Shown here: piece by piece, positions 1 to 20,157 of the stretch
Layout of the letters: every line of letters starts with the position of its first letter
Numbering within the stretch: position 1 is the first letter of the stretch
Source of the DNA: a virus
Strand: one strand, 5' to 3'
DNA: 23,383 nucleotides
Virus record (IMG/VR): IMGVR_UViG_3300029448_000144
Span: 1-23,383 of that record
Program-made: the position numbers and the translations under genes
The notes under the pieces: model-generated
Told to the model about the DNA's origin: nothing
The model's database searches: none
The model's input: only the letters and a program-made list of their open reading frames with translations

Positions 1-1791
1 AAGCGAACCTGATGCGTCTGCTACACGAGTGCCCCAGAAGGATTCAAGTGCGCCAGCACCATAGGTTAAATCTCCGTCATTGCCATTGCTTGATACGTCA
101 ACAATGTTAGTTGTGCCGATGTCGCTTTGGAAGTCGTACTCAGCCAATACAGCAGTAGCACTTTCAAGCTTAACGTTATGAATAATACCGTTAAATGGAT
201 TTTGCAAAGCTGAAAAGTCCTCTCTGCCACCAATCCAAACGTTATCGTTTCTGTGATTTTGACCTGAAGTTGCAAAAGTAGACTGGACGACATCATTGAT
301 TTTTATTTCATTGTTATCGTAATCAACTTCAACCGTATACTTTGCTCCCGCAACAATAGTTGTGGTAGTAGTTCGGTTCGCCCCTAGGCTGTTACCTCTC
401 GCCTCTGGCTCTCCCTCAGATAAGGCAGTTCTCATTGAGCCGTCTGACAAAAGCTCAAGGCACGCGGGTCTGAAAATGCGCAATCCTAATAGAACTCCAT
501 CGTTTATTACAGTCGGTGTAAAGGTAACTGAATACTTTTTAACAAGTTGGTCGCTGACTCCAGTATCCACATAATCATCCACACCATCAAACGTAGCAAC
601 CTGTTTTGTCTTGGTGTTGAGTGCGGGAATCTTCTTAACAACAGTAAACTTAAGGTCACTAATAACTAAATTAGCCCCATTAAGTGCAATCAATCGAATA
701 TCACAATTACTTGAAGTAGAATTAAGAGTGGTAGAAAAAGTGTATGTACCTATTTGACCGCCTATGTATACAGACCCTTCAGACCATCCTGCTGAGGTTG
801 CCGATATAGCTACATCGGAACCACTTGCTTGACCAGTTGTTTGCGTTATAGTACCAGATACAACCAAAGTGTCACCCGAAACCATTCCATCAACAACTTG
901 CTTAAGTTTGCTAGAAGTTCCTGCGTTACCTGCTAATGTAAGATTAGATTCATTTACTGTCCAAGTACCATCAGCAGCTGCAGCTAAACTCCAGTAACCT
1001 GCATATCCTTTAAATATATCTGTATCAAACCCATACTCGTGGTTCCAAGACTCGATGTCGTCAAGTGTAGAATGTGTTGCATTAATTATTGTACCGTTAG
1101 CTCCATTACCGCTTACATCATAAGCTACAGAGCCAGAGCCTTCTGCTAATGGTAAATGAATGTTTGCACCTACAGAAGAGTTCGATACAGAAACATTAGA
1201 TATTTTGCCTTTAAAGCTTAGACCACCATTTCTGGCACCAATTTGAAACCCACCACTTCCTCCGTGACTACCTGCGGGTCTTATGTTTGCGTCTGTTTGT
1301 GTTGTTCCATCTGTTAGGTTTTCTAAAACAAAATTTGTTACCTGACCACTTGCATCATAAGTTATTGTGCTTCGATAAACCTTATTTAACTCTATAGCAA
1401 ATATTTCTGCACTACTACTATTTACCTTTAAAAAATTGTTTTGCGTAAATAATCTATAAGCTGCAAGACCATTAGAATAAATAGCTTGCGTAGTTGCTAC
1501 TTCCTGTTTAAAGGTTGCTGTAATAACACAAGAGCCAAAATGATTTCCTGCATTTGTTGTTAAATCTACACCACCCGATGAGTCAACTTTTACATAATCA
1601 CCAGACCCGTCAAAGCTCAGGCAGTTAACATTAGTGAGATCTAAATCAGTTGTGTTATCCAACTCATCGATCATAGCTCCATCTTCTGATCCGCGCTTAA
1701 AAAGCTGAAGCAGGTCAGCGGAAGATGCGATCGAGCGTCCACCACCACCTGTTCCGAACTTAGCAAAGCGACTTCCAAAGCCGCCAAACAT
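1..1791 (-). CDS. Tail fibre/appendage protein with two LamG-like domains (3' end outside window)
   Basis: Open for 597 codons from ATG 1791 to the left edge with no stop, so the C-terminus is missing. It starts with a glycine-rich head (MFGGFGSRFAKF), followed by a LamG/concanavalin-like jellyroll at about residues 55-240 (FDGSGDYVKV near its start, LPLAEGSGSVAYDVSGNG near its end). Residues about 260-385 look like a carbohydrate-binding beta-sandwich, and a second LamG-like domain spans about 395-575 (ATFDGVDDYVDTG to DVSSNGNDGDL). LamG-type folds in phage appendages usually bind surface glycans, so a receptor or polysaccharide contact role is inferred. The ATG overlaps the stop of the 103-aa gene (TAATG), which implies coupled translation from the promoter at 2140-2168. 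The family assignment rests on reading sequence patterns only. The missing C-terminus could hold an enzymatic or trimerisation domain. Confidence 0.75.
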   Translation of the reverse strand, partial: MFGGFGSRFAKFGTGGGGRSIASSADLLQLFKRGSEDGAMIDELDNTTDLDLTNVNCLSFDGSGDYVKVDSSGGVDLTTNAGNHFGSCVITATFKQEVATTQAIYSNGLAAYRLFTQNNFLKVNSSSAEIFAIELNKVYRSTITYDASGQVTNFVLENLTDGTTQTDANIRPAGSHGGSGGFQIGARNGGLSFKGKISNVSVSNSSVGANIHLPLAEGSGSVAYDVSGNGANGTIINATHSTLDDIESWNHEYGFDTDIFKGYAGYWSLAAAADGTWTVNESNLTLAGNAGTSSKLKQVVDGMVSGDTLVVSGTITQTTGQASGSDVAISATSAGWSEGSVYIGGQIGTYTFSTTLNSTSSNCDIRLIALNGANLVISDLKFTVVKKIPALNTKTKQVATFDGVDDYVDTGVSDQLVKKYSVTFTPTVINDGVLLGLRIFRPACLELLSDGSMRTALSEGEPEARGNSLGANRTTTTTIVAGAKYTVEVDYDNNEIKINDVVQSTFATSGQNHRNDNVWIGGREDFSALQNPFNGIIHNVKLESATAVLAEYDFQSDIGTTNIVDVSSNGNDGDLTYGAGALESFWGTRVADASGSL

Positions 1792-2139: not shown

Positions 2140-2168
2140 GTTATATATAAGTCTTATTAAGTTGTCAA
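2140..2168 (-). promoter_or_regulatory. sigma70-type promoter for the appendage genes
   Basis: Perfect -35 TTGACA (2168-2163), 17-nt spacer, -10 TATAAC (2145-2140, five of six consensus bases). The predicted start is near 2133, about 30 nt ahead of the 103-aa gene. The promoter overlaps the 3' end of the gp16-like gene (stop at 2165). It should give the small protein and the LamG appendage their own transcript from host RNA polymerase. Confidence 0.7.
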
Positions 2169-5100
2169 TCTATATTAAACTTTTTCGGTTCTTCCTTCTT
2201 CGTAGGCATGAATAAAGGCAGCACTGAACCCTCTTCTACAGCCTTATAAGCCCGTTTAGCACCAGTTACAGGAACACCTGCAGCTGCTAGTACACCCTGA
2301 TAGTCACGAAATTCTACATCCTGATCTGGGTCTGCTATCTTTTTACCTAGTTCAATAGCATCTTTACCTGCACCTATAATTGGTAATTCGTAGTCAAACC
2401 CTGACATAGTCTGAGCAACAGCACCACCAACCGGTCCCGATCCATTCAGGAAGATACTTGTCATCATATCGACTAGTTCTTCTTCATTCTCAGGTAACTT
2501 ACCATTATCAGAAGCCCAGATGCCTGTACCAGCTAATACAGTAGACATAATCAAACCTGTTAACTGATCACGTGACTGCTGGTCTTGTAAATTCTTAGCC
2601 AGCTTAGGCGCGCGATTGTATATGCCGTTATAAATTTTCAATAGCTGATTAGAGAACATCAATGCGGTTCTGTAGCCCTCACCCTTTTGATATATGCTAG
2701 CGAGGTCTGCGGCTACGTTGGTAGGCTGTGTACGCGCTGTAGTGTTTCTGGCTAGTCGTACCGCTTCTGCTTGAGTTTTATTTTCCTGCAATGCCTTCTT
2801 GTATACAGCATTCCATCCACTCGCTCTTACAACTTTGTCGGTTGCAACAATACCACGTAAGCCATCTTCACCTATTTTTCCTACAAGTTTGTCATAAACG
2901 TTCCGATGATTAGTTCTGAACTCATTGATAACACTATCAACAGTGGTGCTTCTGATGTTTTCATCCATCTTTTCAGCAAACTTAACCTGAGCGTTAACAA
3001 GTCTGGTCTTACCATTCTCCTTAACTGTAGTCCAGTTAGAAGCTGTATCTACCATTGATCTACCCAGTCTAGCCAATCCTTCTGGAGTAGAGCCTAGGTC
3101 TTGCATATAAAAGAAGTATGAAGGTATCTGCTTAGTTATAGTCTTAACATTGTATGCTAGGTAACCTACTGACAAATTCTTTCTAATAGTTTTAAAGACC
3201 TTGTCGACTTGATTATCCGCTTTATACAGTACGTCGGGGTTAGCTACGCGCTCTTGATAATTCTTTAACTCGTCTACCATAGACTTGCCATGAGCCTTCT
3301 CTATATCAGAGCCTAGGTTTTTAATGATGCCATCAATAGTCTTAACATTGTCTGCCTGATGTATGTAGTGTTCCATCTTGCTAGTCATGCCCAACCATTC
3401 GCCAACTAGGTCTAATCTAACTTCAGCATTTGAGCCAACACGCTGTTTCATTTGCGCCTTGGATAGCTGTGCAGTGGAGAAGTTACCAGAACCTTCCATC
3501 ATATTTTTAATATCATCAATACCCTTATTAAACTCTACGCCTTTTCTGTTTAGCGGTGTGTAGTAGTCTATATCGGCTAATGCTTTACCTTCTACCTTTT
3601 CATAGGTTTCAGCAATACGACCACGTGTTCTAGCGTAATCCGCAATAATATAGTCAGACATCTGCTTGAGTGCGGGATTGCTTTCTACGTACTTAATGGC
3701 AGAGCGCATAGCTGCTTTGTCGCCCTTGAAGTTACCTGCTAGTACAGCTCGCATACCACCAGTTTGTTTAGACTTAGCATAGATGCCCATAAGTTCTGAT
3801 CGGCTTAGTTTGCCATATCCGGGGTGGAAGCTAATCTTTTGACCCAGCTTACGGGTACTCATCTTCGCATCCTTCATTACTTTATCGAAGGCTTGCTTAC
3901 GGAATCGAGTCATCTTGGTAGCAGCAGCATCTCCTACCCGTCTGTTATCTACCAATGCTCTGTGCGCTGCTCCATCGTATTTAGCTTTACCACCATCTAA
4001 CGTGTCAGCTAACTCATCCATCGTTGAAAACTGTCTCTTCAGTGCGGTGGCTCCCTCTACTAGCCCTTTAAAGCCACGAGAATCGCGTGTAACGGCTTCT
4101 GTCTTCTTAGACGGCTTCTTATTCACCTTAAGGCTCTCACCGATTGTGGTGTAAATTTGACGCCTTCTCGCCTTTCCTTCCTTTTGGTTCTTTACTAGTT
4201 TCTGCTTTACTACACGTTTATCCTGCTTAAGACGTTGACCTGCGGTCTGTGCGCCCTCTGGTGTAAATACAGTTTCAGCCGCCTTGGTAGGAGCCATGTC
4301 TGCATCTGTGATAGGTCTACCTGTTAGATCCATGTAAGGGTTTGTTTCACCCTTCTTAACTTCCTGTCTGATCTCCTTGCGTGTAGGAGCAGTGCCTGTA
4401 CGTGCAGCTTGCTCTTGGGTAGCTCGTACTGATCTAGTCATTGCACCGAACGCAACATCAGGTCCGAAGTTCTGAATCATCTCGGACATGACGAATTGTT
4501 TCTCTATTTCGTAAATCTCTTCCTCAGTAGCACCTTCACCAGCCACTCGTTCAGCCATGCTTCTAGCTCTAGCTAATGCATCCTCCATGCGGAAGTTTTG
4601 CGTAATAGCTACGTTAGCACCAATGTCAGCTACGATAGCACCGAGGTTGGTTCTAGCTAGACCTGTTATCACGGGGGTCATACTCATGCCAGCCATTAAC
4701 CCAGCAGCCTTGGTACGCTCCTCTAGTGAGCCTGTAGTGGTAGCCATTGCGTATGCACCCATAAACGCACTACGTAAACTTGTAACTTTAAACAACTCTT
4801 TATAAGTCTTACCCTTGGCTATGAGTGATAAATTCTTACCTTTAAGTAATGCATTAGCACCCTTCATCATTTTACCCATTAGGAATAGTGTACCGCCTAC
4901 ATCGCTAACAGTCTTGTTTACAGAGCGTAATAGGAATTGACTTTGGTCGCCATTCTCTATAGCTTCTGTTAAACCCTTCATTTGTATAGAGTCTAGCTGG
5001 TCATACTTTTTATTCATTACGTTATCTTCATCACCAAAGATATCAATGATACCGCCTACACCTGATGTAAATGCTTTAACTGTACCCATGCCGAGTGATA

Positions 5101-5581
5101 GGGCTGTGTTGTCAGACATCTGCTGTTCAAAGCTCTCGCCCCATGCAGCGTTACCAAAGATAGTTGTCTGCGCTAGGTCTGATGCAAATTGAGCTTCCTC
5201 TTCGTTTAATCCGTTTTGTGCAGCAAACTGTCGTGCTATCTCGGAATCAAAAGTTTCTTTTAGCTGTGGGAATGCGTTGTAATCTAAATGCTCTTCTTCT
5301 TCTTCTAGCTCTGATAAATCTATAAGAGGCTCATTATCTTCTTCATCTAAAAACGCAAGCTCATCTACTGGATCGGAATCCTCTTCTTTATCTAAGAATG
5401 ATAGTTCATCAACTTCTGGCTTTTGATCTAAAAAGGATAGCTCATCTTCTTGTGTTATATTCTTATTGTTATCCTTCTTATAGTTAGGGTGCATTTCCTG
5501 CACTACCCCTAGTGCATCTCCTGCACCACCCTTGTGCATTTCCTGCACTACCCCCTCGTCCTTCTTCTCGCTTATTTCCAT
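2165..5581 (-). CDS. Large internal virion (ejection) protein, T7 gp16-like
   Basis: 1138 aa. The ATG at 5581 overlaps the stop of the previous gene by 10 bp. Size class, order (last of three internal proteins) and mixed helical/hydrophobic make-up match the large podovirus ejection protein that lines the DNA channel through the envelope. The N-terminal about 100 residues are very acidic and hold three DELSFLD-type motifs at 46-52, 58-64 and 73-79. Hydrophobic stretches occur near 290-325 and near 1005-1022, candidates for membrane insertion. I see no clear lytic transglycosylase (SLT) domain such as T7 gp16 carries at its N-terminus. Residues 10-31 encode VVQEMH twice, over a repeat that appears to be conserved as nucleic acid (see 5489-5548). 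The assignment is by position and style, not by a signature motif. Confidence 0.72.
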   Translation of the reverse strand: MEISEKKDEGVVQEMHKGGAGDALGVVQEMHPNYKKDNNKNITQEDELSFLDQKPEVDELSFLDKEEDSDPVDELAFLDEEDNEPLIDLSELEEEEEHLDYNAFPQLKETFDSEIARQFAAQNGLNEEEAQFASDLAQTTIFGNAAWGESFEQQMSDNTALSLGMGTVKAFTSGVGGIIDIFGDEDNVMNKKYDQLDSIQMKGLTEAIENGDQSQFLLRSVNKTVSDVGGTLFLMGKMMKGANALLKGKNLSLIAKGKTYKELFKVTSLRSAFMGAYAMATTTGSLEERTKAAGLMAGMSMTPVITGLARTNLGAIVADIGANVAITQNFRMEDALARARSMAERVAGEGATEEEIYEIEKQFVMSEMIQNFGPDVAFGAMTRSVRATQEQAARTGTAPTRKEIRQEVKKGETNPYMDLTGRPITDADMAPTKAAETVFTPEGAQTAGQRLKQDKRVVKQKLVKNQKEGKARRRQIYTTIGESLKVNKKPSKKTEAVTRDSRGFKGLVEGATALKRQFSTMDELADTLDGGKAKYDGAAHRALVDNRRVGDAAATKMTRFRKQAFDKVMKDAKMSTRKLGQKISFHPGYGKLSRSELMGIYAKSKQTGGMRAVLAGNFKGDKAAMRSAIKYVESNPALKQMSDYIIADYARTRGRIAETYEKVEGKALADIDYYTPLNRKGVEFNKGIDDIKNMMEGSGNFSTAQLSKAQMKQRVGSNAEVRLDLVGEWLGMTSKMEHYIHQADNVKTIDGIIKNLGSDIEKAHGKSMVDELKNYQERVANPDVLYKADNQVDKVFKTIRKNLSVGYLAYNVKTITKQIPSYFFYMQDLGSTPEGLARLGRSMVDTASNWTTVKENGKTRLVNAQVKFAEKMDENIRSTTVDSVINEFRTNHRNVYDKLVGKIGEDGLRGIVATDKVVRASGWNAVYKKALQENKTQAEAVRLARNTTARTQPTNVAADLASIYQKGEGYRTALMFSNQLLKIYNGIYNRAPKLAKNLQDQQSRDQLTGLIMSTVLAGTGIWASDNGKLPENEEELVDMMTSIFLNGSGPVGGAVAQTMSGFDYELPIIGAGKDAIELGKKIADPDQDVEFRDYQGVLAAAGVPVTGAKRAYKAVEEGSVLPLFMPTKKEEPKKFNID
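5489..5548 (-). repeat. Three tandem 15-nt hairpins with GGA loops
   Basis: Three copies of the inverted repeat GTGCA-N5-TGCAC start at 5489, 5512 and 5534 (steps of 23 and 22). In the mRNA each is GUGCA, loop GGAAA or GGAGA, then UGCAC. They lie in codons about 12-31 of the gp16-like gene. The outer two are read as QEMH, while the middle one is read in another frame as GAGDAL, so the conserved unit is nucleic acid rather than protein. Confidence 0.75.
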
Positions 5582-10945: not shown

Positions 10946-13900
10946 TTAGAATCTTGGTGTTTCGTAATTGCGAGAAGCTATCCAGTTGGCTTCTGAGTAT
11001 GGTATAAACCCTGTGTTGTTGAAGTAATCGTACGTTACATAGCTAGATTTAAACGCCTCTCCATCGCTAGCAACAGATGTCGTTTCATCGTAAACTAAGG
11101 AGCCTACAGTCCAGCCGGTGGTTGGCGGGTACTCTGTGTCTGCTGAGTTTGTTGAGACAGTAAATGTGTCCTCGCCAAAGTCGTCTAACATCGTCCACTG
11201 AGAGCCATCCCATTGTATTCTGTAAGACGCGCCGAGAGTATCGTCGTAATATCTAACCTTGCCATTTCTAGTTCCGTTGACAGTCATCCCTCCGTTTATG
11301 TTGGGCGCGGAAGTAATACCGCTAATAACGATTGAGTCGTAGCTCTCTACTGCTGTTGTTACTTGGTTGTACCACTGCTCCAGCTTTGGAAAGTCGTCGT
11401 TACTTGGTGTTTGATAGAACAAAACATCACTGTCAGTAGATATGCTAAAGCCATAAGAAATAACCCAAGCAAGTCCGCGAGTGTCAAAATCATACTTCTG
11501 GATAAAGTAACCATTGTCGTTTTTATAGTAGTAGTGTCCATTCGTGTCCTTTGATTGCAGGTTGTAGTCACCTGCGATTCGCTCGTCCGTTTCGTAGACA
11601 ACCTCAATGCACTTAGGATGCTCTGAGAACATCTCTGTGTAGTAGTCGTTCCACTCACGCTGAGTCTTGAGTTGCTCACCCATGCTAGCACGTTGTACTT
11701 GTCCGCCTGATGCAACCTTGTCTAAATCGGTAAGCAGATCCTCGGCTACTTGAGCGCGTTCTACATCACCAGATGCATCTACTTTGTCTAAATCTGTTAG
11801 CTTATCTTCCGCTACCTTGCTTCGCTCAACATCACCAGAGGCATCTACCTTAAGTAAGTCGATAGCTTTGTCTTTAGATACTGACGCTGTTTCAACAATC
11901 TGACTTGACGCAACCTTAAGCAAATCAATCGCTTCATTTACGGCAACCGTGTCCGCCTGAACGTCTTGGCTGGCGGCAACCTTAAGAAGGTCAATAGCTT
12001 TGTCAGCGGCAACTTTAAGGGTTTCCGTAGCTTGACCAGATGAAATTTTTACAGCGTCTGTTAGCTCTTCCTCAAGAACGTCAGCACGGGATACGTCGCC
12101 CTTAGCATCAATTTTCAGTAGGTCAACAGCCTTGTCCGCAGCAACCTTTAGGGTTTCGATTGCTTGGCTTGATGCTACCTTAAGTGTGTCTGTAGCTTCG
12201 TCCTCTGCAACAGCAGCTTGTTCAACGTCTCCACCTGCGGCTACTTTTAACAGATCAATAGCCTTGTCGGCTGTTACCGCTGCTGTTCTTACTGTCTGGC
12301 TTGATGCAACCTTAAGCAAGTCGATAGCCTCGTCAACTGCTACTATATCTTCCTGTACGCCCTGACTGGCATCAACCTTCAATAAGTCTGTAAGTTTATC
12401 TTCCGCCACCTTGCTTCGCTCAACGTCGCCAGAGGCATCAACCTTAAGCAGGTCAATAGCTTTGTCCTTGGCTACTGATGATGTTTCAACAGTTTGACTT
12501 GAAGCAACCTTGAGCAAATCAATTGTTTCATCTGCAGAAACAGCTTGAGTCTGAACGTCTTGGCTGGCGAAAACCTTTTGGATGTCAACAGCTTTATCGG
12601 CAGTAACTTTAAGAGTCTCAACCGCCTGAGAGGCTGCTACCTTATCGGTGTCTGTTAAAATATCTTCTGCAACCTTAAGGCGTTCTGTGTCCCCTGCTGC
12701 GTCAACCTTTAATGCGTCAATCACTTTGTCAGCAGCAACCTTTAATGTTTCTGTTGCTTGTGATGCGGCTACCTTGTCAGCGTCTACTAACTCATCAGCA
12801 GCAACCTTGGCTTGTTCTACAGCTTGGCTGGATGCAACCTTTAACAAATCAATAGCTTCGTCCTTAGAAACTCCAGCAGTAGCAACTACTTGTTCAGCAG
12901 CTACCTTTAGCAAGTCTGTAGCTTGATCTTCTGCTACTGCTGCCTGCTCAACGTCCCCGCCTGCGGCTACCTTTAACAAGTCATTCGCTTTGTCAGCTGA
13001 AACCTTGAAACCTTCTATCACTTGGCTGGCAGCAACCTTGTCCATATCTGTAAGCTTGTCCTCAGCAACCTTAGCGCGTTCAATATCACCAGCAGCGTCT
13101 ACTAGTAGTAAATCAATTGCCTTGTCAGAAGCCACCTGTAGTGTTCTTACAGCTTGTGATGCCGCTACCAAATCCTCGTCAACAGCTTGGTCAGCCGTAA
13201 CCATTGCTTCTCTAACGGCTTGGCTGGAGGCAACTTTCAGCAAATCAATAACTTCATCTTTAGCTACACCAGCAGTCGCAACAACCTGTTCCGCAGCTAC
13301 CTTCAATAAATCTGTAGCCTGATCCTCGGCAACAGCTGCCTGCTCCACATCGCCACCAGCGGCAACCTTCAGCAAATCAATAGCTTTGTCAGCTGCTACC
13401 TTAAGGGTTTCGATAACCTGAGAGCCAGCAACCTTATCAGTGTCTGTTAAAATATCTTCTGAAACCGCAGCTCGTTCGACATCACCAGCAGCATCTACTA
13501 GTAACAAGTCGATAGCTTTGTCGGAGGCAACCTGTAGCGTTCTTACGGCTTGCGATGCTGCAACTAAATCTTCGTCAACCGCTTGATCAGCTGTAACCAT
13601 TGCCTCTCTTACAGCTTGCGATGATGCAACTTTTAACAGGTCTACAACCTCATCCTTGGCTACACCTGCTGTAGCAACAACCTGCTCTGCAGCCACCTTA
13701 AGTAGGTCTGTGGCTTGATCTTCCGCTACGGCAGCCTGTTCTACGTCTCCACCAGCAGCAACCTTAAGTAAGTCGATTGCCTTATCGGCTGCAACTTTAA
13801 GAGTTTCAATTGTCTGAGAGCCAGCTACTTTATCAGTGTCTGTAAGTATATCCTCGGCAACCTCAGCTCGCTCGACGTCACCTGAAGCATCAACCTTCAA

Positions 13901-15298
13901 TAAGTCTGTAAGCTTGTCCTCGGCAACCGCAGCGCGTTCAACGTCACCTGAAGCGTCAACCTTTAACAAGTCAGTCCCTTTGTCAGCTGCAAGCTTGAAG
14001 CCTTCTACCAATTGGCTAGCAGCAATTTTGTCTAAGTCTGTAAGTTTGTCCTCTTCAAGCTTGGCACGTTCAACATCACCTGAAGCATCAACCTTCAACA
14101 AGTCAACGGCTTTATCGGAGGCAACCTTTAAGGTTTCAATAATCTGAGAGGCACCTACTAAATCTTCGTCAACAGCTTGGTCAGCCGCAACCATTGCTTC
14201 TCTGACCGCCTGACTTGATGCCACTTTTAACAGGTCAATAACTTCATCCTTAGCTACGCCAGCAGTAGCAATAACTTGCTCGGCAGCTACTTTTAACAAG
14301 TCCGTCGCCTGATCCTCAGCAACAGCCGCTTGTTCTACGTCTCCACCTGCTGCAACTTTTAGCAGGTCAATAGCCTTGTCTGCAGCTACCTTAAGAGTCT
14401 CGATGGTCTGAGATCCAGCAATCTTATCAGTGTCTGTTAAAATGTCTTCTGCAACCGCAGCTCGCTCAACGTCACCACCAGCGTCTACTTGTAATAAGTC
14501 TGTAATCTTGTCTTCTACAACCGCGGCTCGCTCAACGTCGCCAGAAGCATCCACCTTAAGTAAGTCGATAGCCTTATCGGCTGCAACTTTAAGGGTTTCA
14601 ACTGTCTGAGATGCTCCTACCTTGGAGGTATCAACCTCTGTATCGGCTGTAACCTTAAGCAACTCAGCTTGACGCGTATAGTCGATTTCCTGTTTAGCCA
14701 TGTGGAACTTAAGGAATGCTTCGTCTGTTAGGTCATGCTGCTTGTCGCCTGCTCCGTATAGTTCTTCTTCAGTCTTAACGGCTAGCTGTAAAGCTTCAGC
14801 GTATTCCTTTCCTAGCACAACACCAGACTCTTGGTCTAATGTTAACGCTGGTGCAATCTTGGAGGCTAGTTTTAGAACTATAAGCTGGTTAAGATGCTCA
14901 TCAAATGCTAAGGTTGAGGTGATGGATGTGTCAACAATAGACACTTCAAGTAAAAGGTTAGTGCTATTAACGTCAAATGTTTCCAACAGAAAGCCGTTAA
15001 CATTGTATTGGTGGGGTTGGAGGTATTCTCGTGTTACTGTGTTTGGTGTAAATACGCGGTGCAGTTTAACCACATTGTTGGGCATGGCATATAAAGCTCC
15101 ATCGCCAGCTGTTGATGATTTTGTTATAGATTGTATAGATGCTACACTTGAAAACTTGTGTGCTAAAATAACTTCTTTAATTGCTGAGTCGATATATGTG
15201 TTGGCTACTACCGATGGTCGGTCTGTGCCAGAAAGGTCGGTGGTGATGTCAGCTCCTACTCGGAGGAGTGCTTGGTTTGCAAGTTCTAGCTTAGTCAT
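10946..15298 (-). CDS. Tail tubular protein A (gp11-like gatekeeper) fused to a 90-repeat hendecad fibre
   Basis: 1450 aa, ATG at 15298 with TGGAG upstream. Residues 1 to about 190 match the podovirus gatekeeper/tail tube A pattern (MTKLELANQALLRVGADI, then RPSVVANTYIDSAIKEVIL). T7 gp11 is only about 196 aa and ends there. Here residues 222-1211 are exactly 90 uninterrupted 11-residue repeats of the type IDLLKVAADKA, a coiled-coil (hendecad) periodicity without a single insertion or deletion. Residues 1212-1450 hold two small aromatic/glycine-rich beta modules (RIAGDYNLQSKD near 1240 and SGITSAPNINGGM near 1326), each with NG and W landmarks. I infer a ring protein carrying its own long fibre tipped by ligand-binding modules. 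An alternative is a tape-like internal part. The N-terminal call is firm; the fibre role is inference. Confidence 0.85.
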   Translation of the reverse strand: MTKLELANQALLRVGADITTDLSGTDRPSVVANTYIDSAIKEVILAHKFSSVASIQSITKSSTAGDGALYAMPNNVVKLHRVFTPNTVTREYLQPHQYNVNGFLLETFDVNSTNLLLEVSIVDTSITSTLAFDEHLNQLIVLKLASKIAPALTLDQESGVVLGKEYAEALQLAVKTEEELYGAGDKQHDLTDEAFLKFHMAKQEIDYTRQAELLKVTADTEVDTSKVGASQTVETLKVAADKAIDLLKVDASGDVERAAVVEDKITDLLQVDAGGDVERAAVAEDILTDTDKIAGSQTIETLKVAADKAIDLLKVAAGGDVEQAAVAEDQATDLLKVAAEQVIATAGVAKDEVIDLLKVASSQAVREAMVAADQAVDEDLVGASQIIETLKVASDKAVDLLKVDASGDVERAKLEEDKLTDLDKIAASQLVEGFKLAADKGTDLLKVDASGDVERAAVAEDKLTDLLKVDASGDVERAEVAEDILTDTDKVAGSQTIETLKVAADKAIDLLKVAAGGDVEQAAVAEDQATDLLKVAAEQVVATAGVAKDEVVDLLKVASSQAVREAMVTADQAVDEDLVAASQAVRTLQVASDKAIDLLLVDAAGDVERAAVSEDILTDTDKVAGSQVIETLKVAADKAIDLLKVAAGGDVEQAAVAEDQATDLLKVAAEQVVATAGVAKDEVIDLLKVASSQAVREAMVTADQAVDEDLVAASQAVRTLQVASDKAIDLLLVDAAGDIERAKVAEDKLTDMDKVAASQVIEGFKVSADKANDLLKVAAGGDVEQAAVAEDQATDLLKVAAEQVVATAGVSKDEAIDLLKVASSQAVEQAKVAADELVDADKVAASQATETLKVAADKVIDALKVDAAGDTERLKVAEDILTDTDKVAASQAVETLKVTADKAVDIQKVFASQDVQTQAVSADETIDLLKVASSQTVETSSVAKDKAIDLLKVDASGDVERSKVAEDKLTDLLKVDASQGVQEDIVAVDEAIDLLKVASSQTVRTAAVTADKAIDLLKVAAGGDVEQAAVAEDEATDTLKVASSQAIETLKVAADKAVDLLKIDAKGDVSRADVLEEELTDAVKISSGQATETLKVAADKAIDLLKVAASQDVQADTVAVNEAIDLLKVASSQIVETASVSKDKAIDLLKVDASGDVERSKVAEDKLTDLDKVDASGDVERAQVAEDLLTDLDKVASGGQVQRASMGEQLKTQREWNDYYTEMFSEHPKCIEVVYETDERIAGDYNLQSKDTNGHYYYKNDNGYFIQKYDFDTRGLAWVISYGFSISTDSDVLFYQTPSNDDFPKLEQWYNQVTTAVESYDSIVISGITSAPNINGGMTVNGTRNGKVRYYDDTLGASYRIQWDGSQWTMLDDFGEDTFTVSTNSADTEYPPTTGWTVGSLVYDETTSVASDGEAFKSSYVTYDYFNNTGFIPYSEANWIASRNYETPRF
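11666..14635 (-). repeat. 90 in-frame 33-bp (11-aa) repeats
   Basis: Codons 222-1211 of the tube A fusion. Each unit follows the pattern V/I/T-D/E-x-x-x-V-A/D-x-x-x-x, alternating types such as IDLLKVAAGGD and VEQAAVAEDQA. Higher-order blocks of 12 units (units 25-36 and 37-48, 396 bp apart) are almost identical as protein but very different in synonymous codons. The + strand of this stretch also stays open for long runs, an artefact of the repeat. Confidence 0.95.
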
Positions 15299-15407: not shown

Positions 15408-16388
15408 TTACGCGTCTACTGTTTCGTCACAGTCAACACGAACAACTTTAGCTTCTTCCATACGAACAGCACCGAAGCGAGCTGAAGCGTATGCATACCA
15501 GTTGAACCGCATATCTGCACGTTTTTCGACTTCAGTCTTGATGTCAGAACCAGTTACAGTACGGATACCAGACTTACACCATACGATGTTAGAACGGATG
15601 TCTCCATTAGTAGTAGGAGAAGCAACAGTTCCAGCGTCAGGAGCGTCGTTAGTCCAAGAAAGAACAACACCGCTGTCGTCAACTTTAGGCAGCAAGTTGC
15701 TGATGCAGAAGTTGAAGCCGAGGAAGTTGTTAACTTTACCAGAAACCAACGCTTGGATGTTGTTGTAGTCGCTAGAGATAACGTTCTCTTCAGCCAACAA
15801 GTCAGCGATCTGCTTAGGTGTAACAGCAATGTAAAGCGCGTTCATTGGGTCGTCGAGGTCGATACCAGCGATTTCCAACTTAGCACGTGCTTCACGCAAC
15901 TTAGCAACAGTTAAGCCTTCGTTGTTGTTAGCGATAACTTGATCAGAGCCTAATGCAACAGGAGTGTCAGTACCAGCTTTACCTACAGAAGCGTTTCCGA
16001 GGATGCCAGAAATGAACTCAATGTCACGCTTCCGGTTCAATGCAGAAACCATACGCTGAACGTATTCAGCAGAAGGATCGATCAAAGAACGAAGCTTGTC
16101 TTGGCTGTCGATCATTAGACCAACATCATATGAGCTAGCAGAAACCCGACGACGATCGTGAGCGATGCTTGCGATTGGGCTAGTGTTAGATGTTCCGCTT
16201 ACAGAAGCAGTAGTTACTTCTGATGCAGTTACAGAAGCCAATGTGTCGTAGAATTTGTATTCTCCGTCGATTGTATCTTCCATTGATTTGCCAGCGAACT
16301 TTCCGCCCTTAGTCTCTGTGAGGAGGTGAAGGGTAGAAGCAAACTGGTTTACGAAGTTAGGATCCAAAGGACCACCTGTATATGCCAT
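15408..16388 (-). CDS. Major capsid protein
   Basis: 326 aa, ATG at 16388 behind GGAG at good spacing. It follows the scaffold gene and precedes the tail tubes, the usual capsid position. The sequence fits a podovirus HK97-fold coat protein: an N-terminal arm with LHLLTETKGGKFAGKSMED, a conserved DRRRVSASSYDVGLMID stretch, the spine-helix region ending in ALNRKRDIEFISGILG, and a C-terminal MRFNWYAYASARFGAVRMEE. It has its own sigma70-type promoter (16552-16579), a leader of about 155 nt and an intrinsic terminator, all suited to very high expression. I saw no slippery site that would suggest a frameshifted long form such as T7 gp10B, although I cannot exclude one. Confidence 0.9.
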   Translation of the reverse strand: MAYTGGPLDPNFVNQFASTLHLLTETKGGKFAGKSMEDTIDGEYKFYDTLASVTASEVTTASVSGTSNTSPIASIAHDRRRVSASSYDVGLMIDSQDKLRSLIDPSAEYVQRMVSALNRKRDIEFISGILGNASVGKAGTDTPVALGSDQVIANNNEGLTVAKLREARAKLEIAGIDLDDPMNALYIAVTPKQIADLLAEENVISSDYNNIQALVSGKVNNFLGFNFCISNLLPKVDDSGVVLSWTNDAPDAGTVASPTTNGDIRSNIVWCKSGIRTVTGSDIKTEVEKRADMRFNWYAYASARFGAVRMEEAKVVRVDCDETVDA

Positions 16389-18516: not shown

Positions 18517-20157
18517 TTATTCACCTCCAAACATCTTCATTAAGTCCTCAGCTCCAGAGCCAGCCTCCGGTGCTTTCTGTGTTTTAACATAGGCATCTGC
18601 TGCTGCTGTAGATTGTTGTATCTGAGCTTGCTGTGCAGCCTGTTGAGCTTGCTGTTGACGTTTTCCATCACGCTGTTCGACAGTAGTTTGAACATTGTTG
18701 GGAACCATGTTAACATCCTGAATGAATCTAGCCATAGCGTCTGCATCAATGTTGTCCCATATCTCAGGTTTGACCTGACCGATAAGACCCATCTGCTCCA
18801 TTGCTGTCATAGTGCCAAACAATTCGATCTGACGAGATGCTAATGCTGCTTTACCTACTAGCTCGAACTCGATCTCAGCTCCACTAAGCTCCTGAATCTG
18901 AAGCTCCGGGAACTTACGCGCCCGATACATGATGCCAAATGCGCGCTCTAAGATAGGACGTACGAAGTATTTGTTAAGTCGGTTTACGGCTGGTGTAAGG
19001 AACTGAAGTGACAAGTTCAAACGCTCGGATGATTCAAACGCAGTCATGTTCTTCTTGTTCATTAACGGATTGAATAATGGTACATAGAACGCATCGAGAA
19101 TCTCTTCCTCTTTCTTGCGAATCATGTCATCATTAATCATTACATTGTCAGCTGGGCGTAACTGCTCCGGCTTAGACATTGGATTACCAGCGTTCCAGTA
19201 AATGATAGAGCCTTGATCGTTGCTAATACGACGAACACTGCCATCGTTAGGTGCCAACCATGGTGGGTTAGATACACGTTCGGCTCCACGAATGCGAGTA
19301 ACTTCCATGCGGTTAAGCATAGGTAGCGTAGAGAACACCTCTGTAGCAGGGGAGCGTCCGTACTTCTCGTAGTTAGTCTTATAGAATCGACCAACACTGT
19401 AGGGCATTTCATCAAAGCCAGACTCACGTACAATCTCTTGAGCATCTAAGCTAACGTAGTATGACGCGATTGGCTTCTCATTCTTCTTCTGAGTACCAGC
19501 CATGCCACCTTTGCGAGGTGTAACAATGTGAATAAACTTAAACTCCTTGTTGTTTGTGCCTACATCATTAGCGTGATCCCTGATCATTACGGGTAATTCA
19601 TCACCGAACTGCTGATACGCCTGACGCGCTGTAAGTGTGAACTCACGGATAACTGTATCTACCTCGCCTAAGTAGTTTTCACAAAAGGCAAACTGGTTGA
19701 TGTAGTGGCTACGGAAGTTAAGCATACGCTTGTCAGTTCCTTCGCAGTACAAAGCTGTAGTACCAATGTATCCACAAGCGTCAACGCACTGTCCCATCTC
19801 TTCATAGAAGTTAGACTCTTCGATGGCACGATTAAAACGTTTAGTGGCTGCATTTAATGCGCGCTTAACATTATCGTTCTCAGAAAGCTCTTCACTCTTA
19901 ACTGATAACCGAACCCAGTTCTGTCCCTGTGGGAACAGGTGGCTCATCATGCCAGCAGTAAACATACGACGCGCTTTAATACCAATATCGATTACACGCT
20001 TGTTATCCTTGCGCTCACCAGCAGTTTGTAATGCCTCGATGTTGTCAGCCTTCGGGTTGCAGAACTCTGCCGCCGATTGATACAGGCTGTTAAAGTTTGT
20101 ACGCTCGGCAGAACTCATCTCCCGTTTATACATTTTGATCAAGTCAGTTGCGTTCAT
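18517..20157 (-). CDS. Portal protein (head-to-tail connector)
   Basis: 546 aa, ATG at 20157 in an ATGA junction with the preceding 59-aa ORF. The opening (LIKMYKREMSSAERTNFNSL then YQSAAEFCNPKADN), the conserved ARRMFTAGMMSHLFPQGQNW stretch and the later GRSPATEVFSTLPMLNRME match podovirus head-to-tail connector proteins (T7 gp8 family, Pfam Head-tail_con type). It forms the dodecameric DNA gate at one capsid vertex, binds terminase during packaging and the tube A ring afterwards. The C-terminal about 50 residues are rich in glutamine and alanine and probably form the helical barrel end. Length agrees with T7 gp8 (about 536 aa). Confidence 0.93.
   Translation of the reverse strand: MNATDLIKMYKREMSSAERTNFNSLYQSAAEFCNPKADNIEALQTAGERKDNKRVIDIGIKARRMFTAGMMSHLFPQGQNWVRLSVKSEELSENDNVKRALNAATKRFNRAIEESNFYEEMGQCVDACGYIGTTALYCEGTDKRMLNFRSHYINQFAFCENYLGEVDTVIREFTLTARQAYQQFGDELPVMIRDHANDVGTNNKEFKFIHIVTPRKGGMAGTQKKNEKPIASYYVSLDAQEIVRESGFDEMPYSVGRFYKTNYEKYGRSPATEVFSTLPMLNRMEVTRIRGAERVSNPPWLAPNDGSVRRISNDQGSIIYWNAGNPMSKPEQLRPADNVMINDDMIRKKEEEILDAFYVPLFNPLMNKKNMTAFESSERLNLSLQFLTPAVNRLNKYFVRPILERAFGIMYRARKFPELQIQELSGAEIEFELVGKAALASRQIELFGTMTAMEQMGLIGQVKPEIWDNIDADAMARFIQDVNMVPNNVQTTVEQRDGKRQQQAQQAAQQAQIQQSTAAADAYVKTQKAPEAGSGAEDLMKMFGGE

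Follow-up and report, generated by a model that had tools for sequence, protein, structure and literature searches.

In phage T7, gp11 forms a ring between the portal and the nozzle, and the fibres that attach to this ring are proteins of their own. In T4, the whiskers made of fibritin (gpwac) are helical rods that leave the neck, and fibritin is a separate protein, a parallel trimer that lies outside the connector ring. The adaptors of PHROG 394, which are found in HTVC010P-like and epsilon15-like phages and with which the Carin-1 connector (PDB 8ck1) can be grouped for the present comparison, end in a short arm peptide. Additions to the gatekeeper chain itself have also been seen: the tail tubular protein of Vibrio phages VP2, VP5 and JSF9 (PHROG 9239), encoded beside tube B, joins a gatekeeper core and a large extra part in one chain, and in VP2 (741 aa; 744 aa stop to stop) the arm is intact and in place (ADTLINARRG) and is followed by Ig-like and Gly-rich domains. 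In gp83, the adaptor subunit of phage DEV, helices 2 and 3 are separated by an outward-facing, lectin-like insert of 101 aa, and the C-terminal arm reaches in between portal protomers (PMC10925440); in SU10, the embracing loops at the C-terminus are wedged in among the portal clips (PMC9509320). Gatekeeper-borne appendages as a kind are therefore not new, since Vibrio phage VP2 already has one. The viral gatekeeper that we describe here has the core fold, gene position and arm peptide of the PHROG 394 adaptors, but its sequence places a module of about 1,240 residues, most of it a regular repeat array, between the last helix of the core and the C-terminal, portal-binding arm. This arrangement is unlike the VP2-type extension, and searches of the protein for Ig-like domains and for PHROG 9239 gave no match; it is also unlike the insert of DEV gp83, which has no long repeat.

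The window, by which we mean the whole stretch of 23,383 nucleotides that was analysed, covers bases 1-23383 of a 36,920-base IMG/VR virus record, a single uncultured record. A run of genes on its minus strand encodes terminase, portal, a scaffold-like protein, capsid, the 1450-aa ORF, tube B and internal virion proteins (Table 1), and the order capsid, tail tube A, tube B is the same in HTVC010P, HTVC035P, MZH0603 and others. Among named phages, the HTVC010P-like pelagiphages and the epsilon15-like phages come nearest, with about 25-30% identity in portal and tube B, and contig L010 is the closest relative. The 1450-aa ORF lies on the minus strand at the coordinates from which the original prediction had worked, with zero indels or stops over 4.35 kb, where the other frames contain 43-155 stops. 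Tube B starts 13 nt past its stop codon, behind an AAGGAG-type site.

Table 1. Features of the 1450-aa gatekeeper gene and its neighbours in the window.
Feature	Residues	Position	Strand	Basis
Portal gene		18517..20157	minus	PHROG 332, E=4.1e-112
Major capsid gene, directly upstream of the 1450-aa ORF		15408..16388	minus	PHROG 3437, E=2.4e-62; 49% identity to L010
Whole ORF, gatekeeper with inserted repeat and beta module	1450 aa	10946..15298	minus	only open frame
Gatekeeper core (tail tube A / head-completion adaptor)	1-185	14744..15298	minus	PHROG 394, AlphaFold, Foldseek, alignment with 33 relatives
Link from last core helix into array (insertion point)	186-210	14669..14743	minus	alignment; low-confidence helix prediction
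Array of 91 x 11 residues, predicted alpha-helical	211-1211	11666..14668	minus	22-residue true unit
Super-repeat copy 1	244-397	14108..14569	minus	88-97% aa identity to residues 442-595, 66-aa windows
Super-repeat copy 2	442-595	13514..13975	minus	aa identity to copy 1
Super-repeat copy 3	596-771	12986..13513	minus	matches residues 464-639
Beta-type module, without known relatives	1212-1433	11000..11665	minus	AlphaFold strands at low pLDDT
C-terminal arm peptide of gatekeeper (YSEANWIASRNYETPRF)	1434-1450	10949..10999	minus	matches the chain ends of ordinary gatekeepers
Tail tube B / nozzle gene, directly downstream	1053 aa	7771..10932	minus	PHROG 376, E=4.8e-104; synteny

The N-terminus of this protein is a head-tail gatekeeper, an assignment that is sound at the level of the fold. 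Residues 1-177 match PHROG 394 ('tail protein', E=5.7e-13), the family of the HTVC010P, Vibrio 1.182.O and L010 proteins at the same gene position, and seven invariant columns are common to the window core and six annotated relatives. The AlphaFold model of residues 1-185 has a pLDDT mostly of 75-97, and with this model Foldseek retrieves the Carin-1 connector (1.7e-10) and T7 gp11 (6.8e-7), as well as cyanophage A4 and LME-1; in all, 26 PDB chains, which are phage adaptor or portal-tail entries, are found at E<=0.001, in agreement with the adaptor fold of a helix bundle plus a beta dock domain. The protein gave no match to PF17212 (Pfam Tube) or to PHROG 446, whereas T7 gp11 itself matches both. 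The original prediction had called the N-terminus gp11-type, and this holds for the overall fold and for the place of the gene; as to family, its sequence assigns the gatekeeper to the PHROG 394 type of HTVC010P-like phages and not to that of T7 gp11 proper.

How unusual the length of this protein is can be judged from a survey of loci gathered through relatives of the capsid and tube B in viral and bacterial genome collections, together with annotated phages. Among 115 intact gatekeeper ORFs measured, a count of ORFs and not of independent lineages because many are close relatives of each other, 113 are 183-296 aa long. The other two are the window protein and that of VP2, which was picked for its length from a predicted-structure library, so that the fair sample is the survey apart from VP2. 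Further gatekeeper-fold proteins of 492-1139 aa are listed in that library. Among the ORFs examined, no other carries a helical array inserted ahead of its arm. The earlier view that no fibre of this build has been described is only partly right, given the gatekeepers with added domains in VP2 and DEV (gp83; PMC10925440).

The evidence for an insertion comes from the two ends of the module. The chain of an ordinary gatekeeper ends in a short peptide, [FW]-[ILTV]-x-[AS]-R, and this arm is present in the window protein, shifted to where the 1450-aa chain ends: the last 17 residues, YSEANWIASRNYETPRF, correspond to the conserved arm of the closest relative, PESQWITSRGYTY. The window arm matches the gatekeeper C-termini of L010, L092, L094 and L097 (aligned segments SEANWIASRNYE in the window, PESQWITSRGYT in L010, PESQWVTARKYT in L092 and PESQFLLARNNT in L094), and none of the C-termini of other ORFs in two control sets, 0 of 2,870 and 0 of 4,910, scored as well. 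A family-wide PSSM for the arm gives weaker support (p of about 0.02), and the peptide is short at 17 residues. At the other end of the module, the match to PHROG 394 breaks off at the junction with position 170 of its 190, whereas relatives match as far as 179-189. Taken together, the early stop of this match and the arm at the chain end indicate that the module was inserted inside the gatekeeper, before its arm, and not appended to it. The ring subunit's own chain does carry the repeat, as had been proposed, but not as the simple C-terminal extension that was envisaged. Residues 1212-1450 had been described as a single beta-type region, and here too the reading needs to be divided: residues up to 1433 are indeed predicted to form strands, at low confidence, and the last 17 residues are the gatekeeper's own arm. 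For residues 1212-1450 we found no family in PHROG or Pfam and no match in PDB or among phages, and no meaningful fold match came from searching with the low-confidence model of residues 1014-1450.

The array is very regular. Residues 222-1211 divide into exactly 90 11-mers without an indel, just as the original prediction had counted, and residues 211-221 add a 91st unit. Position 6 of the 11-mer is V/I/L/M in all 90, and V/I/T occupies position 1 in 89 of them. The periodicity greatly exceeds chance: self-identity is 0.47 at lag 22 and 0.24 at lag 11, with other lags at about 0.05-0.13; because identity at lag 22 is about twice that at lag 11, the true unit is one of 22 residues, made of two halves that are related to each other. 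Proline is absent from the array, which contains 19% Ala, 14% Val and 13.5% Asp and has a net charge of -101 and no obvious hinge. Superimposed on the short units is a super-repeat of about 132 residues, whose copies are 86-98% identical in protein (66-residue windows; window positions 12986-14569), with a fourth, weaker copy at about residues 750-837. Between the best copies pN is 0.01-0.08 and pS 0.57-0.84, such that synonymous sites are saturated, and the longest exact DNA repeat in the array is 26 nt, as in shuffles. We saw no active codon scrambling beyond randomness, as the identical-codon fraction is 0.445 compared with 0.403 in shuffled sequences, slightly more and not less. Nearly identical protein over saturated synonymous sites points to old copies kept by strong purifying selection, and not to misassembly. 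The pattern, near-identical protein with scrambled codons, suggests a likeness to polyubiquitin, and if it is read in that way, selection may hold the array at a fixed length and sequence. These super-repeats, like the C-terminal arm and the PHROG 394 type of the core, are points that the original prediction had missed.

One might nevertheless suspect that a repeat-rich gene was wrongly joined to a gatekeeper in assembly or annotation, given that the sequence comes from a single uncultured record in which a scaffold gap immediately follows the window, and that regions of this kind are error-prone in short reads. Such an artefact, of the kind that a sequencing error joining two genes would produce, seems to us barely credible: both gatekeeper ends flank the module in one frame, no indel or stop interrupts the 4.35 kb, the start of tube B follows closely, and the saturated synonymous sites and the absence of exact repeats longer than 26 nt argue that the super-repeats are not duplicated reads. 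Since identical repeats collapse in assembly, assembly may favour our seeing an array like this one, although it would not create identity in protein. When viral contigs were scanned with single sequences, namely those of the gatekeeper core, beta module, array and tube B, no relatives came up; an alignment of array segments used as query found none either, and neither did tblastn of the whole 1450-aa protein against annotated phages. PHROG and Pfam matches inside the array (SAS-6 helical, UBA and others) were set aside as artefacts of repeats or composition.

We think that the array is probably alpha-helical, and favour this fold only moderately. AlphaFold (monomer) makes the array helical in both models, at low confidence (pLDDT about 45-69), and the absence of proline and the Ala content of 19% also speak for a helix. 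Residue coupling peaks at separations of 3-4, not 2 (a period of 4.0 was equalled in 0 of 3,000 permutations; a period of 3.667 gives p=0.08), and charge pairs at i+3 are opposite in 97 cases and like in 14; the units in the coupling test are related by descent, so that the coupling is supportive of a helix and not conclusive. The canonical hendecad coiled coil that the original prediction had in mind is a different matter. The 11-residue period is present, but the amphipathic signal at the helical angle is absent: hydrophobic power at 98.2 degrees is not above that of permuted columns (p=0.49 on the KD scale, p=0.99 for large hydrophobics), and the near-invariant Val at position 6, the most conserved hydrophobic residue, would sit on the outer face of a simple hendecad coil. 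There are two hydrophobic seams, at positions 1/4/8 and at position 6, which are nearly opposite, and one side is strongly charged. If the array is helical, its two seemingly buried faces would be easier to accommodate in bundles, hairpins or helical sheets than in a lone dimer.

The strongest hydrophobic harmonics of the array are at 131 and 65 degrees, and these would be in keeping with a solenoid, LRR-like or of another beta type, in which 45 coils of 22 residues build a compact adhesin arm of about 20 nm. When the array sequence is compared with solved proteins, only leucine-rich-repeat chains match (PDB 5il7, the CtRoco LRR, E=2.5e-11), and against 22-residue LRR profiles a single register fits, with a hydrophobicity correlation of r=0.82 where the next is 0.37 (permutation p=0.006; VETAKVAEDKATDLLKVAASQD compared with LTELQLSSNQISDIAPLASLKS). 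A compact solenoid would, moreover, solve the return of the chain to the ring. We consider it quite unlikely all the same. Checked against LxxLxLxxNxIxDIxxLxxLxx, the array has Asp for the ladder Asn and Ser/Gly/Glu for the Leu at LRR position 20, and its two 11-residue halves are alike, with a lag-11 identity of 0.245 as against 0.147 in LRR. A profile of the array as query found no LRR, the couplings prefer separations of 3-4 over 2, and AlphaFold, which usually recognises solenoid repeats, builds helix instead.

A straight helix of 990 residues would measure about 148 nm at 0.15 nm per residue, and from that distance the arm could not return. This leaves three arrangements: a rod that folds back, a compact array, or an arm that has ceased to dock. 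With a docked arm, the rod has to fold back and would reach no farther than about 75 nm, instead of 150. We favour an inserted, folded-back neck appendage, and put the probability of this reading as a whole at roughly 0.5. The gene product would be a 12-copy ring protein between the portal and the tail nozzle, and its module would consist of a very long and probably alpha-helical rod, made of 91 eleven-residue units, with a beta-type domain behind it. The module would start from the ring at both of its ends, the N-terminal side from the core and the C-terminal side through the arm, which, as in solved relatives, would wedge between portal subunits. Whisker- or fibre-like appendages might thus leave the neck, folded back on themselves, and reach for the host surface; the likeness of such rods to T4 fibritin is offered as a proposal only.

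The original prediction had the rod run one way for about 150 nm, which conflicts with docking of the arm. In such a fibre, parallel helical bundles of up to about 150 nm would end in a distant tip made of the beta module and the arm peptide, the latter either a relic or a tip cap. An unbroken register with no hinge and the helix prediction for the array are both consistent with this arrangement, and so is a beta module at the distal end, the usual order in phage fibres. A conserved arm peptide is, however, hard to explain 150 nm away from its portal partner, when ordinary relatives keep the arm as an element of the ring, and we regard the one-way fibre as unlikely. It differs from the folded-back appendage only in topology, and an external helical rod, of one topology or the other, is likely.

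It is also conceivable that the helices do not form separate fibres, and that twelve of them are instead aligned on the tail axis as a barrel or sleeve. The ring would be twelve-fold, helices with an 11-residue period suit near-straight packing, and the two nearly opposite seams and the one strongly charged side would fit such a wall. Precedents are the 12-fold portal barrel and the 12-fold tail tube of DEV, which is described as an upside-down portal barrel with an outer diameter of 63 A (PMC10925440). Yet the gene for the tube B nozzle is kept, and its product should sit directly below the ring; a tube of 150 nm would far exceed any short tail, and the C-terminal arm would still have to get back to the portal. 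All this makes the barrel highly improbable. Another possibility is that the module is cleaved away as the particle assembles, or kept inside it, as a chaperone, a ruler or an ejected protein, with only the ring staying in the tail. Phage structural proteins often mature by proteolysis, and an array that appears frozen would suit a ruler. We identified neither a protease gene nor a cleavage site here, however, in known relatives the ring is added after packaging, and if the module were lost, the conserved arm would come away with it, which leaves a cleaved or internal module very unlikely.

Returning to the folded-back appendage, binding at the host surface could pull on the portal-docked arms. 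More specifically, we speculate that each module may act as a giant connector loop, a helical hairpin of at most about 75 nm that is anchored both in the ring and between portal subunits, such that contact at its tip pulls the portal gate; we put this forward tentatively. An open question about short-tailed phages is how the signal 'receptor found' reaches the gate behind which their DNA is kept, and a receptor arm built into the gatekeeper together with a portal-docking arm would, if true, provide a single-chain link that is directly testable. Apart from any role in adhesion, the array is a natural long repeat protein whose blocks are nearly identical while its codons are fully scrambled, and it bears on the stability of repetitive genes.

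Several smaller observations concern the surroundings of the gene. Tube B is 1053 aa long here and 835 aa in L010, so the tail of this phage may perhaps be enlarged in more than one part. Between the gatekeeper and tube B genes, L010 has a separate 114-aa ORF (L010:10252-10596) that is without a counterpart in the window. At window positions 1-1791 a long ORF resembling a surface protein runs off position 1, and at the record's other end an open ORF enters on the same strand (L009:16536-16919), as if the record had been cut within one gene; a terminal repeat was looked for in the record, whose ends carry these open ORFs, and was not found. The scaffold gap consists of 10 N directly past the window end, at record position 23384-23393 (L009:3384-3393). 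Finally, a stretch of about 102 bases is shared, at 88% identity and in opposite orientation, by window positions 5456-5555 and L009:9269-9370; it lies at the start of a 1138-aa ORF (5581..2165) in the former case and in a replication-type ORF in the latter, and both encode GAGDALG and VVQEMHPNYKK.
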